Shown here: one piece after another, positions 50,276 to 55,147 of the stretch
Layout of the letters: each line of letters opens with the position of its first letter
How positions within the stretch are numbered: the first letter of the stretch is position 1
Source: Clostridiales bacterium
Lineage (GTDB): Bacteria; Bacillota; Clostridia; Christensenellales; Borkfalkiaceae
DNA length: 55,147 nt
Reading direction: 5' to 3'
Assembly: GCA_022508285.1 (NCBI GenBank)
Contig: JAFLVN010000008.1
Location: 1-55,147 of the forward strand
Notes under the pieces: generated by a model
Databases searched by the model: none
What the model was told of the DNA's origin: nothing
The model's input: only the letters and a program-made list of their open reading frames with translations
Made by a program: the position numbers and the translations under genes

Positions 50276-50396
50276 AAAATAGCCTCGAATGATTTTTTTA
50301 TAATTTTAAAACATACTCGCATAAAAATCAAGTAAAATTGTAAAAAATTTCCTTTGCCTTTTCAGCTTAAATATGCTAAACTTATAAATACTAACT

Positions 50397-50565
50397 ATGT
50401 CTGCGGTGTTCGTGGTATGGAGAATTCGTAATCCACAATATGTAAAAGGGAGCGGTTGTTTGAGGAAATAGGCAAGGTCTGGTTTCGGAAAGTCCGAGGT
50501 TCCGCTCCGCCGCACCCACCTGCGAGAAGCGGGTTAAAACTTTTTCATATCACGGCACAGGCGGA
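50397..50565 (+). ncRNA. ssrS: 6S RNA (probable)
   Basis: The 629-base gap between aspS and the next gene holds a structured RNA. The ends (gtctgcggtgttcgtggta 50399-50417 and tatcacggcacaggc 50548-50562) pair, with G-U pairs. GAGAAG and TTAAAAC (50524-50540), as in the known 6S central bubble, lie on the 3' side, and gggagcggttg on the 5' side matches the E. coli pattern GCTCCGCGGTTG in part. 6S RNA imitates an open promoter and traps the SigA holoenzyme. A -10-like TATAAA lies at 50383-50388. Ends are approximate. Confidence 0.68.
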
Positions 50566-50663
50566 TTTTGAATGTTGCGGTATGCGCACTATTCAAAATC
50601 CGCTTAAATTATAATTAAATCAAAATCATAAAAGCGGGTGCGTATGCACCCGCTTTTATTTTT
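50561..50663 (+). terminator. two hairpins behind the 6S RNA
   Basis: The first stem (gcggattttgaat 50561-50573 with 50591-50603) lacks a T-run and may belong to the RNA. The second (50628-50641 with 50646-50659, loop gtat, then ttttt) is a full terminator. Confidence 0.75.
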
Positions 50664-50904: not shown

Positions 50905-53900
50905 ATGTTAGCTAATGAACGGCTTATAATAAAAATGTCATTGGAACAGAAGGTGAAATTCGTCACAAGCTTAAATGCGTACGAAAGTTCACCCGTAGGA
51001 GGCTACGAGTTCCCCGTTTTCAAGTTAAAGGGTCAGCCATATGATGACTGCCCCGACGTTTACGCTACGTGTTTTCCTTCCGATAAGGCGCTTGCCTCAA
51101 CTTGGAACTCTAATCTTATAAGCGACGTTTACGGTGCGATAGGCAATGAAACGAAAAGTGTGCACAGCTTCGGCTATTTTAACAATACCGACGATTGCGC
51201 CATAGAAAACCTCTCAAGCGACAATTTCGTTACCGCAAAATTTATACTTTCAAGAACGCTCGGACTCAGTCTCAGTAATCAAGCGGTCAACTTTGAAAAA
51301 ACGTATACGGAAAACAGCGAGCGCGAGTACGACAAAATGTTTATTACAAACACCGTTTTGGCAGATGCTAAGCCGACTTCGATACTCGTTAAAAATCCGT
51401 CAGACGTAGAAAGCATTACTAAAAAATTCAAATATAACAATCTCTTTTTCGGTATTGCTTCATCTCCGCTGGAAACTGTCCGCCTTCTTTTGGCGGGGTG
51501 CTCGCTCGTGTTTATTTCAGAAGATTTCTTAACCGAGCTTGTGGGCTTTTTGTCTGTACGCACAGAAGAATACAGAAAGGCGTACAGGCACTATCGCAGC
51601 GGACAAATGAAGCTCGGCGAGTTTGACCGTCTTGTCCGCAACTTGGAGATTTTCGACGAAACGATAATAGACGAGGCTTGCGACAAGCTTATTTCCATTC
51701 TCTTCGAGATGAAAGAGAATGGAGAGAAAGTCCACGAAATGGAAGGGCTTGACGGAAAAAACAATGCAAAATTCGATGAGATTTCACACGACGAGCTTGC
51801 GCTCAGAGCGGCGAGGGAGTCTGTCGTGCTTATCAAAAACGACGGTATTCTGCCACTCACGCACCGTACGAGAATTGCCGTTGCCGGCGAATATGCCAAC
51901 GATTTTTCCTATCAGAAAGAACTTTTCGGTTGCAACCCCACCGTCGAAATGCTTCCGTTCGACGTTATCAACGAATACGAAGAGCTTAACACAACAGGTT
52001 ACGTTGCAGGCTATGCCAAGGGCGTTAGTGGCAGGGTAGACCTTATCGATTCGGCTGTCGGACTTGCCGGACAGTCGGACTACACTTTATTATATCTCTG
52101 CGCAGGCAGGGGGCAGGCGAGCCTTCCGCCCGAACAGACAGAGCTTATCGAGGCACTCTCATCAAAAGGTGTCGGCATTATCGCAGTGGTTGCTTGCGAT
52201 GAAAATATCGATTTATCCTTTGCTGATAAGTGTAAAGCAGTGCTTTTAACGTATAACGGCGGACAGGAGGGAACGGCAGCCGTTCTCGATATCCTTTGCG
52301 GGATTGTGTCGCCCTCGGGAAAACTCGTCAAAGAGGTTTTAAAACCCGACGGTGAAGTTATGTATCCCTTCGGCTACGGACTTTCGTACACCAAATTTGA
52401 ATATAGCAAATTAAAAGTCAAAACAAACGGCGTAAGCTTCACGGTTTCCAACACGGGAGAGTGCGACGGCTTTGCAAACGTTCAGCTCTACGTAAAGAAA
52501 AAGGACGCAGAGGGACTCTTCTCAAATAAGACCTTGCGCGGTTTTGCAAAGGCGTTCGTCAAAAAAGGTGATGCGGTAAACGTTGAAATTGCCTTTGACG
52601 AAAACACGTTCAGATCGTTCAGCGACGAAAAAAATTGCTATACGATAGACGGCGGCAACTACGAAATTACTGTTTCCGAAAATTACACCTGCGACAAGCT
52701 CTCAAAAACCGTGACTCTCGGCGGGCACGTATTTAATAAAATTCCACAAAACGAAATCGCCGAAACTTCAAACGGCGCAGATATTCAATTCACGGGCGTC
52801 AAAGAGGAAAAAGCACGCACACAAGCGAGTGCGAAACTCTCGTTCAGCGTAAAACTTTTCCTTGCGCTCATGCTCGGCTTGTACTACAACGGGCTTATCG
52901 CCGTATTTGCTTTCACTCCAATAATCAGTGTAAAAGGTTTTATTCTCTACGTAATACTCGGCTCAATTGCGGTAGTTTTAAATATACTTCTTATCGTATA
53001 TATAGTTTTGATAGCCAAACAGCGCAAAAAACAGCTTAAACTTCACACAAACGACATGCTTACCGATATGGTCGGCAGTATAAAAGACTTCAAGGAAATT
53101 GCAAAGGTTTCATACGCCGTACCTGTCAAAGCCGAAGAGGATGAAGAAAAAAATGGCGAAGGTGAAGCAAACGGTGAAAATACCGTCTTCAGTACCGAAG
53201 ATCCGGTTGAGCGCACTTTTGACGCAAGCTTAGACGATAGCGAAGAAGAGGTAACGTTCACCGAGCATATTTCCCTTGCCGAAGTTTGTTCCAACTTCCG
53301 TGAGTTTGCGCTCTCATACGGAGTCAATATAGAAATTATTTCCGTCCGAGCTATAATCTCTGCGGTTGCGTCAAGTAAAATCGTAATTTTAAAATCGGCA
53401 AATACCGAAGTTTTGCCCGACCTTTTAAAGGCGCTTTGCGCATACTTTGGTAGCACCGCAATTACAAATGCCAAAGATTGTTGGAAAAAAGCGGGCGACC
53501 TTATGTGGAAGGAAGCGGGCGACAGATATGTTGTATCAGACTTCACCAACGCCGTTCACGGCGCAAGTAAGTCTCCCGCAAAAATGTGTGTTGCAATTCT
53601 TGAAAACGTCAATGCCGAAAACGTTATGTCGTATTTTAGCGACTTTGTAGACTATGCAAACCATCCGACGGAAGAACACGAGATTAAGATAAGCGACGAG
53701 CTTATTATAAAGCTCCCCGATAATATTACGTATTTTGTAGTACCCGAAGAAGGGTCAACGCAGAACTTCCCCAAGGAATTTATCAACGCTTCCATGACCG
53801 TAGATCTTGCACTCAGCAGGGCTGAAAAGGGTAGCGAGGTAGAAGCAAAAAGCGTTGCATTTGCAGAATTTAACGATTTGGTTAAAGCCGCTCGCGAAGA

Positions 53901-54213
53901 CGTCTTCATATCGGAAAAAATTTGGAAAAAGATAGACGAACTTTTCGGAACGATAAGCGCAAGCGAAAAATTCTATGTCGGCAATAAAAACACTATACAG
54001 ACGGAAAAGCTCACTTCCGTAATTATGGAGTGCGGAGGCGACGAAGCCGAAGCGTTTACGCAGATGTTCGTCTGCAAGCTTGTTCCGCTCTTAAAAAATA
54101 CTCGCCTCTACAAGCAGGACGGTGGCGACAGAACTCTTTCGGGCATTATAGAAAAGCTTTTCCCCGAGGAAGATCTTGCAAAAATTCAGAAGGCGCTTGT
54201 AAAGCTCAACTGA
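50905..54213 (+). CDS. GH3-like pseudoenzyme with TM hairpin and pseudo-AAA+ domain
   Basis: This 1102-residue protein has four parts. Residues 10-290 recall a GH3 beta-glucosidase barrel (MSLEQKVKF, ATCFPSDKALASTWN), but the acid and substrate Asp positions are missing and the place of the SDW nucleophile reads FFGIASSP. Residues 298-500 keep the GH3 C-domain (AARESVVLIKNDGILPL; YPFGYGLSYTKFEYS), and 505-605 look like the fibronectin-III domain. Two membrane helices (649-671, 678-704) form a tight hairpin. Residues 785-1100 align with the AAA+ protein encoded downstream but lack Walker A and B. No signal peptide is seen, so both ends probably face the cytoplasm. It lies 21 bases before the ATPase gene. 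Confidence 0.85.
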   Translation: MLANERLIIKMSLEQKVKFVTSLNAYESSPVGGYEFPVFKLKGQPYDDCPDVYATCFPSDKALASTWNSNLISDVYGAIGNETKSVHSFGYFNNTDDCAIENLSSDNFVTAKFILSRTLGLSLSNQAVNFEKTYTENSEREYDKMFITNTVLADAKPTSILVKNPSDVESITKKFKYNNLFFGIASSPLETVRLLLAGCSLVFISEDFLTELVGFLSVRTEEYRKAYRHYRSGQMKLGEFDRLVRNLEIFDETIIDEACDKLISILFEMKENGEKVHEMEGLDGKNNAKFDEISHDELALRAARESVVLIKNDGILPLTHRTRIAVAGEYANDFSYQKELFGCNPTVEMLPFDVINEYEELNTTGYVAGYAKGVSGRVDLIDSAVGLAGQSDYTLLYLCAGRGQASLPPEQTELIEALSSKGVGIIAVVACDENIDLSFADKCKAVLLTYNGGQEGTAAVLDILCGIVSPSGKLVKEVLKPDGEVMYPFGYGLSYTKFEYSKLKVKTNGVSFTVSNTGECDGFANVQLYVKKKDAEGLFSNKTLRGFAKAFVKKGDAVNVEIAFDENTFRSFSDEKNCYTIDGGNYEITVSENYTCDKLSKTVTLGGHVFNKIPQNEIAETSNGADIQFTGVKEEKARTQASAKLSFSVKLFLALMLGLYYNGLIAVFAFTPIISVKGFILYVILGSIAVVLNILLIVYIVLIAKQRKKQLKLHTNDMLTDMVGSIKDFKEIAKVSYAVPVKAEEDEEKNGEGEANGENTVFSTEDPVERTFDASLDDSEEEVTFTEHISLAEVCSNFREFALSYGVNIEIISVRAIISAVASSKIVILKSANTEVLPDLLKALCAYFGSTAITNAKDCWKKAGDLMWKEAGDRYVVSDFTNAVHGASKSPAKMCVAILENVNAENVMSYFSDFVDYANHPTEEHEIKISDELIIKLPDNITYFVVPEEGSTQNFPKEFINASMTVDLALSRAEKGSEVEAKSVAFAEFNDLVKAAREDVFISEKIWKKIDELFGTISASEKFYVGNKNTIQTEKLTSVIMECGGDEAEAFTQMFVCKLVPLLKNTRLYKQDGGDRTLSGIIEKLFPEEDLAKIQKALVKLN

Positions 54214-54234
54214 CGAAAAAGATAAGGAGTAATT

Positions 54235-55147
54235 ATGTCATACGGCAATTTAATATCGGCGGCCACGCCTGCGGTGCTGTTCAACCGGCTACTTGATGTG
54301 CTCACCTGCCGTACAGCCTTAATAATCTACGCTTGCATACTGCTTGTCTTAATTCTCGTGCTTGCAATACGGGTAATTGTGGCTGAGCAGCGCCGTGCCG
54401 CCGCACTCAAGGAAAAGAACGAAGCCGTCCCCGAAATCCAAAAAGACGAAGCATTGGAATCCGTCAAGAAAGATATCGACCAAAAAATGGATAAACTCAG
54501 CGGGGATATGTCGTTCGTAAAAAAATCGCTTGCAATGGGGGCGCCTTATGCGGCGGGATATACCTATCGTAGCTGTACCCCTGATATTGATAAACCTGAA
54601 GCGAACGGGAATGCCGAAGAAGAAATAAACGAGGGCGGCTCGCGGTTCTACATGCTCACGCAGATAGATAAAGAATACGAAAGCTACGTCCGCCCCGAAT
54701 ACGACGATAATATATCGTTGAAAGAGCTGTGCGAAGAATTCCGCAATTTTTCGGCGGGACAGTTGAAGCTGTATTACGATATCGAGGACATAAGAAGATT
54801 TATAGGCGCTTTAGCGGTAACAAAGCTTATAATCCTACAAGGTATGTCGGGTACAGGTAAAACCTCGCTTGCCTACGCGTTCGGAGAGTTTTTAAAAAAT
54901 AAGACGGTAGTAGTCCCCATACAGCCGATGTGGAAGGAGAGAACGGACCTACTCGGCTATTTCAACGAATTTACAAGACGATTCAACGAAACGACGCTTC
55001 TGTATAAGATGTACGAGGCGAATAACAACGAAGAGATATATATAACTGTACTCGACGAAATGAACATAGCGAGAGTGGAGTACTACTTTGCGGAATTTTT
55101 ATCGCTGTTGGAAATCCCGAACCCCGACGGCAGGAACTTAGACGTAG
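54235..55147 (+). CDS. membrane-anchored AAA+ ATPase, partial at window end
   Basis: The first 304 residues are visible; the gene runs off the window. A transmembrane helix (about 27-49) is followed by a coiled, charged stretch (50-130) and an AAA+ domain with Walker A GMSGTGKT (203-210) and Walker B VLDEMN (Asp274, Glu275). DEMNIARVEYYFAEFL is typical of the dynein-related AAA_5 group (McrB/MoxR-like), which remodels protein complexes. Both active motifs are intact. AAGGAG (54225-54230) sets the ATG. The C-terminus and any further genes of the operon lie to the right. Confidence 0.88.
   Translation, partial: MSYGNLISAATPAVLFNRLLDVLTCRTALIIYACILLVLILVLAIRVIVAEQRRAAALKEKNEAVPEIQKDEALESVKKDIDQKMDKLSGDMSFVKKSLAMGAPYAAGYTYRSCTPDIDKPEANGNAEEEINEGGSRFYMLTQIDKEYESYVRPEYDDNISLKELCEEFRNFSAGQLKLYYDIEDIRRFIGALAVTKLIILQGMSGTGKTSLAYAFGEFLKNKTVVVPIQPMWKERTDLLGYFNEFTRRFNETTLLYKMYEANNNEEIYITVLDEMNIARVEYYFAEFLSLLEIPNPDGRNLDV

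Follow-up and report, generated by a model that had tools for sequence, protein, structure and literature searches.

A putative membrane-anchored McrBC-type NTPase operon that couples a degenerate GH3 and AAA+ protein to twin NTPases and large surface proteins

McrB and McrC proteins are familiar restriction enzymes. An NxD signature, after which Asp or Glu usually stands as a second acidic residue, marks a branch of the McrB GTPases. Bell et al. 2024 (eLife, PMC11090510) give the name CoCoPALM to a type in which an NxD McrB is fused to an FtsB-like segment and which also has coiled coils and signal-peptidase family proteins linked to pili; they defer its description. We analysed a stretch of 55,147 nucleotides from a Clostridiales bacterium (the window; contig JAFLVN010000008.1), an entire contig of a 97-contig, 1.47 Mb draft assembly, whose final two genes are P1 and the start of P2, here called AAA1. 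A preliminary description of the window had seen in these two genes a two-protein membrane machine unlike any described system known to its author. P1 and AAA1 are indeed paired, but they stand at the head of a conserved operon, P1-AAA1-P3-AAA2-P5-P6, and the machine would be larger, with a second live nucleoside triphosphatase (NTPase), a McrC-like P3 and surface proteins. We read P1 and AAA1 as the first subunits of a membrane-anchored, McrBC-type NTP-driven machine that acts on surface proteins, and give this reading a probability of about 0.45. No published description of the operon was recognised in a search of open-licence PubMed Central text, although a related named kind does exist: NxD McrB systems, especially CoCoPALM, are the closest known.

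Scanning GTDB genomes for relatives of the AAA protein turned up 520, of which the best 80 were retained and gave 69 loci, extracted with 10 kb flanks; the locus counts therefore describe the closest relatives. The gene immediately before the first AAA gene is P1 in 53 of 57 testable loci; in L077, L082 and L101 it is P3 instead, so that the AAA gene there is probably AAA2. AAA1 is followed by P3 in 39 of 44 loci; P3 in turn is always followed by an AAA gene (39 of 39), and AAA2 always by a surface protein (35 of 35). Surface proteins stand directly after P1 and the AAA gene, without P3 and AAA2, in L100, L115, L123 and L128, an arrangement that would reflect either recombination between the repeats or assembly collapse. 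Host labels comprise Clostridia, Oscillospiraceae, Bacillales, Acholeplasmatales, Anaeroplasmataceae and Haloplasma, with Pumilibacter intestinalis CLA-AA-M10 and Anaerocaecibacter muris CLA-AA-M11 as named strains. In the window's own genome, the end of another contig (C56) holds the 3′ end of an AAA gene, P5, P6, a polytopic membrane protein (its counterpart in genome G004 matches DUF975 below cut-off), P8 and the start of P9, and this contig end has 11 bases in common with the end of the window. P3 was not found in the window's assembly.

As far as the published outline of CoCoPALM reaches, the operon shares with it a membrane-anchored NxD McrB-type NTPase and a McrC-like protein tied to extracellular structures. 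It differs in that its NTPase genes are two and homogenised, that it has a GH3-bearing subunit with a dead NTPase domain and large YDG/MBG-type proteins, and that a sequence pattern found no SipW-like peptidase. Two genomes that carry the present operon, G034 and G013, also carry CoCoPALM-like loci (L139, 6776-10829; L140, 3806-7571) with a membrane McrB-like protein of 519 and 516 amino acids, a McrC-like protein of 539 and 537 amino acids, a SipW-like peptidase (in L139 a Peptidase_S24 match below cut-off) and AWFT-bearing secreted proteins. We take the peptidase to resemble SipW and the secreted proteins to resemble TasA. SipW-like genes were found in L055, L139 and L140, all CoCoPALM-like, and in no locus of the present operon within its flanks, by a sequence pattern that can miss members. 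P3 aligned with the McrC-like protein of the two CoCoPALM-like loci with an hhalign probability of 99.8 (E 6e-30, 244 columns), and three CoCoPALM-like AAA proteins formed a clade of their own on the tree (100/100), whose position among the operon AAA proteins the tree does not settle. A simple identity with CoCoPALM is not favoured, given the separate clade, the failure of the pattern to find a SipW-like gene and the coexistence; because both kinds coexist in G034 and G013, we read the operon as a sister variant of CoCoPALM.

The likeness to E. coli McrB/McrC lies in profile matches of the AAA domain to McrB chains and in DUF2357 in P3, whereas the membrane anchors and surface-protein partners set the operon apart, as does the lack of any match to a methylcytosine-binding or nuclease family in the proteins scanned (Pfam scans covered selected operon proteins of the loci). 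CoCoNuT systems, in the parts of the literature that describe them, likewise have NxD followed by a second Asp and a long helix on the McrC homologue; they differ in that the proteins scanned here matched neither HEPN nor any other nuclease family and that the present NTPases carry N-terminal membrane helices.

The N-terminal part of P1 has the complete three-domain fold of GH3 beta-glucosidases (9lql, 4zo6, 7ms2), fused to a membrane hairpin, whose second helix closes with the basic stretch KQRKKQLK, and to a degenerate AAA+ domain. The earlier view that both the GH3 module and this AAA+ domain are dead is borne out: Ile184 takes the place of the nucleophile Asp in an alignment with 21 GH3 controls, the Walker A position reads L837/P838 and the Walker B position E900/N901. 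The sequence strings and residue numbers first given for the colinearity of P1 and P2 were correct, and hhalign places the homology of the degenerate domain to the live AAA domains at E 5e-39, which rules out a chance resemblance. The Walker A Lys is present in 0 of 53 P1 proteins, as are both Walker B residues, and the GH3 nucleophile column is Asp in 8 of 45 P1 rows against 21 of 21 controls. In the 7ms2 profile alignment the SDW motif is replaced and the KH motif region is not conserved. An erroneous fusion of an ordinary GH3 enzyme is ruled out by orthologues with the same fusion in other genomes. On the tree the P1 rows form a single clade (100/99), with a long-branch warning.

By regular expression, the N-terminal module is GH3 in 43 of the 53 P1 proteins; to these is added L079, which the expression missed and whose P1 aligns with that of the window at 42%. 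Zinc-ribbon-like cysteines replace GH3 in L102 and L112 (the L102 Pfam match is below cut-off), similar cysteines with no Pfam match are found in L088, and several membrane helices form the module in L100; L086, L092 and L113 have no N-terminal module, and in L090 and L103 the P1 record is truncated at the 5′ end. As judged from these sequences, the core of P1 is the dead AAA+ domain, with GH3 as a front module that can be exchanged; a dead sugar module would belong to the machine in most sampled loci, as first suggested, but as an exchangeable part. Four membrane helices were seen in P1 of L107, L110, L120 and L125. Mycoplasmatota are wall-less, and among loci so labelled with a complete P1 start GH3 is missing from three of four (L086, L092, L113), L087 appearing to bear it; a link between GH3 loss and wall-less hosts is a lead only.

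AAA1, in turn, has intact Walker motifs (Table 1) and is the live partner that had been proposed, and hydropathy upholds the membrane anchoring of both proteins, through the P1 hairpin and the AAA1 helix. By sequence, AAA1 has one and AAA2 two N-terminal membrane helices. GKT, DE and NNDD are present in all 92 of 92 AAA proteins; the AAA1 of the window ends before the NNDD site, and an NNDD-bearing piece lies at the end of C56. In the PDB, the only matches of the AAA profile below E 0.2 were the McrB chains 6hz4, 6ut6 and 7vsr (E 6e-5 to 2e-4). Because of the NNDD motif AAA1 and AAA2 fit the NxD McrB branch, and by motif they belong to the McrB GTPase-type clade, use of GTP and a hexamer being predictions only. 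Three soluble McrB-like proteins, borne on a very long branch, were placed within the AAA2 rows that have diverged, so that the tree gives no support for the operon AAA proteins as an exclusive clade. An origin of the gene in phages or plasmids was rejected, because the matches of AAA1 from L066 to 266 plasmid and 2 phage records were partial, none covering 80% of the query and all below 60% identity.

Within an operon the two live NTPase genes are in most cases nearly identical. In 36 pairs in which both open reading frames (ORFs) span at least 380 amino acids, AAA1 and AAA2 have a median DNA identity of 99.0%, mostly over about 1.1 kb, against a median of 76.5% between AAA1 and its best match elsewhere among the loci; in 34 of 36 pairs the within-operon identity is the higher of the two. 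Among 35 pairs with both ORFs of at least 420 amino acids, 30 are homogenised, with 211 synonymous versus 6 nonsynonymous codon differences in 8716 codons. AAA1 and AAA2 labels are as scattered on the tree as after shuffling (20 changes for AAA1 and 21 for AAA2, where shuffling gave means of 20.0 and 19.9). The AAA domains thus appear to be held identical at the protein level by recurrent gene conversion. The common tract starts a median of 78.5 residues before Walker A, so that the membrane anchors of AAA1 and AAA2 remain different. Copying of a consensus by the assembler may inflate the cases of 100% identity; it is not the sole cause, since the pair of the A. muris strain (L116) is 98.5% identical and many pairs differ at some sites. 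Homogenisation fits the contig break at the end of the window, and 24 AAA ORFs across the 69 loci are cut by the locus end. As the window's assembly holds no second 5′ AAA copy, the homogenised stretch is inferred for the window itself.

P3 would supply the McrC side. At E 0.01, hmmscan found DUF2357 in 18 of 41 P3 proteins and no DUF2357 match in the remaining 23, and in a whole-genome search the P3 genes of nine genomes (G004, G006, G007, G009, G010, G012, G013, G017 and G034) scored above the curated threshold for DUF2357. The P3 model has one 210-residue helix (349-558), and its C-terminal part is modelled as long helices. PF04411, PF10117 and other nuclease families were absent among the matches listed (25 of 26 families, 41 P3 proteins). 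On this basis P3 is classed as a McrC-like (DUF2357) protein with no nuclease match, and McrC homologues may lack the PD-(D/E)xK nuclease domain, according to the relevant section of PMC11090510.

The lack of a nuclease match also bears on a defence role, in which a membrane McrBC/CoCoNuT-like NTPase would sense phage attack at the surface through P5, P6, P9 and P1. Predicted type IV restriction systems are known to contain an NxD McrB/McrC-type core (PMC11090510), and the candidate-defence model PDC-M26A of PADLOC matches the AAA domain at E 3e-44. However, PADLOC gave no match for P1, Pfam brought up no nuclease family in the operon proteins scanned, and CoCoNuT-type systems without an active McrC nuclease are, in the account given in PMC11090510, always encoded beside one. 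The invariable surface protein after AAA2 and the nature of the commonest neighbours, described below, speak against defence as well, and we consider it unlikely.

P5 and P6 each begin with a short N-terminal stretch, followed by a single membrane helix. In the window's genome P5 has 1133 amino acids and P6 4128 (L138, 2945-15328), with many YDG-like motifs; the P6 of L087 scores over the Pfam cut-offs for YDG and MBG_2, that of G000 matches MBG_2 below cut-off, and that of G004 has no Pfam match. In 41 aligned P6 tails, two columns are Tyr in 40 of 41 and 41 of 41, and a pattern chosen after the tails had been inspected is present in 41 of 41 P6 and 0 of 43 P5 tails, with a mean of 0.89 of 41 in shuffled tails. 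Judged from the alignment, this short, predicted cytosolic tail is strongly conserved. It could serve as a handle if the NTPases formed an AAA+ machine for quality control or dislocation at the membrane, extracting or folding surface proteins that had misassembled, as their membrane anchors would allow. However, the presence of large dedicated partners within the operon favours a specific role over a general one, and McrB-type rings are not known to act as protein unfoldases; quality control therefore seems improbable.

P8 is a small membrane protein, and P9 has an N-terminal part and a membrane helix followed by BspA-type leucine-rich repeats (LRRs). Each lies upstream of the operon in 19 of the 69 loci; G004 and G000 carry the two downstream of P6. 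This membrane/LRR pair makes up the two commonest neighbour families. The layout of P9, with a part before the membrane helix and repeats after it, and the sensor-like exchangeable modules of P1 would also suit signalling, whereby surface proteins report contact inward, the NTPases and the P3 coiled coil organise the cell interior in division or shape, and GH3 reports cytosolic sugars. Against it, the Pfam matches of the scanned proteins include no kinase, receiver or other output family, and we think such a role improbable.

Several observations weigh against a machine built on P1, twin NTPases and a McrC-like protein. In 5 of the 35 pairs (L107, L110, L125, L129, L130), and also in G006, G017 and G054, AAA1 and AAA2 have drifted apart. 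A protein with seven transmembrane helices occupies the place of P1 in the latter three and a different gene does so in L130, so that the dead AAA+ protein is not universally needed. No P3 follows AAA1 in L100, L102, L115, L123 and L128, perhaps owing to collapse between the AAA repeats. L066, the first P3 member, has no DUF2357 match by hmmscan. McrC is also missing from the VIA-align structural list for the P3 model, which carries no weight because long helices filled that list.

For the membrane-anchored McrBC-type machine itself, the following working order may be envisaged. AAA1 and AAA2 would co-assemble into a single ring on the cytosolic side of the membrane, which P1 would join as a non-hydrolysing, symmetry-breaking subunit. 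P1 would bring a sensor, in most sampled hosts the dead GH3 module, which perhaps still binds sugar. P3 would dock into the ring and stimulate hydrolysis, the part that McrC plays for McrB. Via the P6 tail, the ring might drive or switch the surface proteins. The output could be the erection, retraction or assembly of an adhesive structure.

Table 1. Features at the end of the window (positions in the window; pLDDT, predicted local distance difference test)
Feature	Position	Strand	Basis or remark
P1, 1102 amino acids: pseudo-GH3, membrane hairpin and pseudo-AAA+	50905..54213	+	
P1 residues 1-611: GH3 fold, predicted cytosolic	50905..52737	+	
P1 Ile184 at the GH3 nucleophile Asp position	51454..51456	+	alignment with 21 GH3 controls; 7ms2 profile alignment
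P1 membrane hairpin, helices 636-670 and 679-710	52810..53034	+	AlphaFold2 helices, hydropathy
P1 acidic low-confidence linker, residues 711-790	53035..53274	+	pLDDT <50 at 710-787
P1 degenerate AAA+ domain, residues 791-1098	53275..54198	+	hhalign, Walker residue replacements
P2 (AAA1), membrane-anchored McrB-type NTPase, cut by contig end	54235..55147	+	
AAA1 single membrane helix, residues 27-49	54313..54381	+	hydropathy, sequence
Stretch homogenised in relatives, start approximate; contig breaks inside	54619..55147	+	inferred for the window
AAA1 Walker A GMSGTGKT	54841..54864	+	
AAA1 Walker B VLDEMN	55048..55065	+	

Beyond the 69 loci, 17 of 61 genomes of the window's relatives have a match to the P3 of G004, some of them a distant one only. 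In an even draw across the phylum, 52 of 398 genomes, the window's included, have an AAA-profile match at E 1e-20, and none of 14 listed genomes of the same class has one at this threshold. Two matches from this draw that were examined (L142, L143) both resemble soluble McrB-like genes rather than the present operon. Upstream of P1, a 6S RNA (RF00013) was found at 50395-50571, its 50.5 bits exceeding the gathering score of 46.4.

A McrB/McrC core that is membrane-bound and linked with very large surface proteins would be a case of these NTPases serving outside immunity. More tentatively than the machine itself, we see it as possible that McrBC-type NTPases have been recruited, here and in a different form in CoCoPALM, as cell-surface engines; in the present variant a ring would be built from two gene products with NTPase domains that gene conversion keeps identical, their membrane anchors would set position, and a dead subunit bearing an exchangeable sensor would break the symmetry. 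The twin identical ATPases offer a natural test of how mixed-subunit rings are built, and the dead subunit one of symmetry breaking. Contig breaks at the AAA repeat also point to under-annotation of the system in metagenome assemblies.

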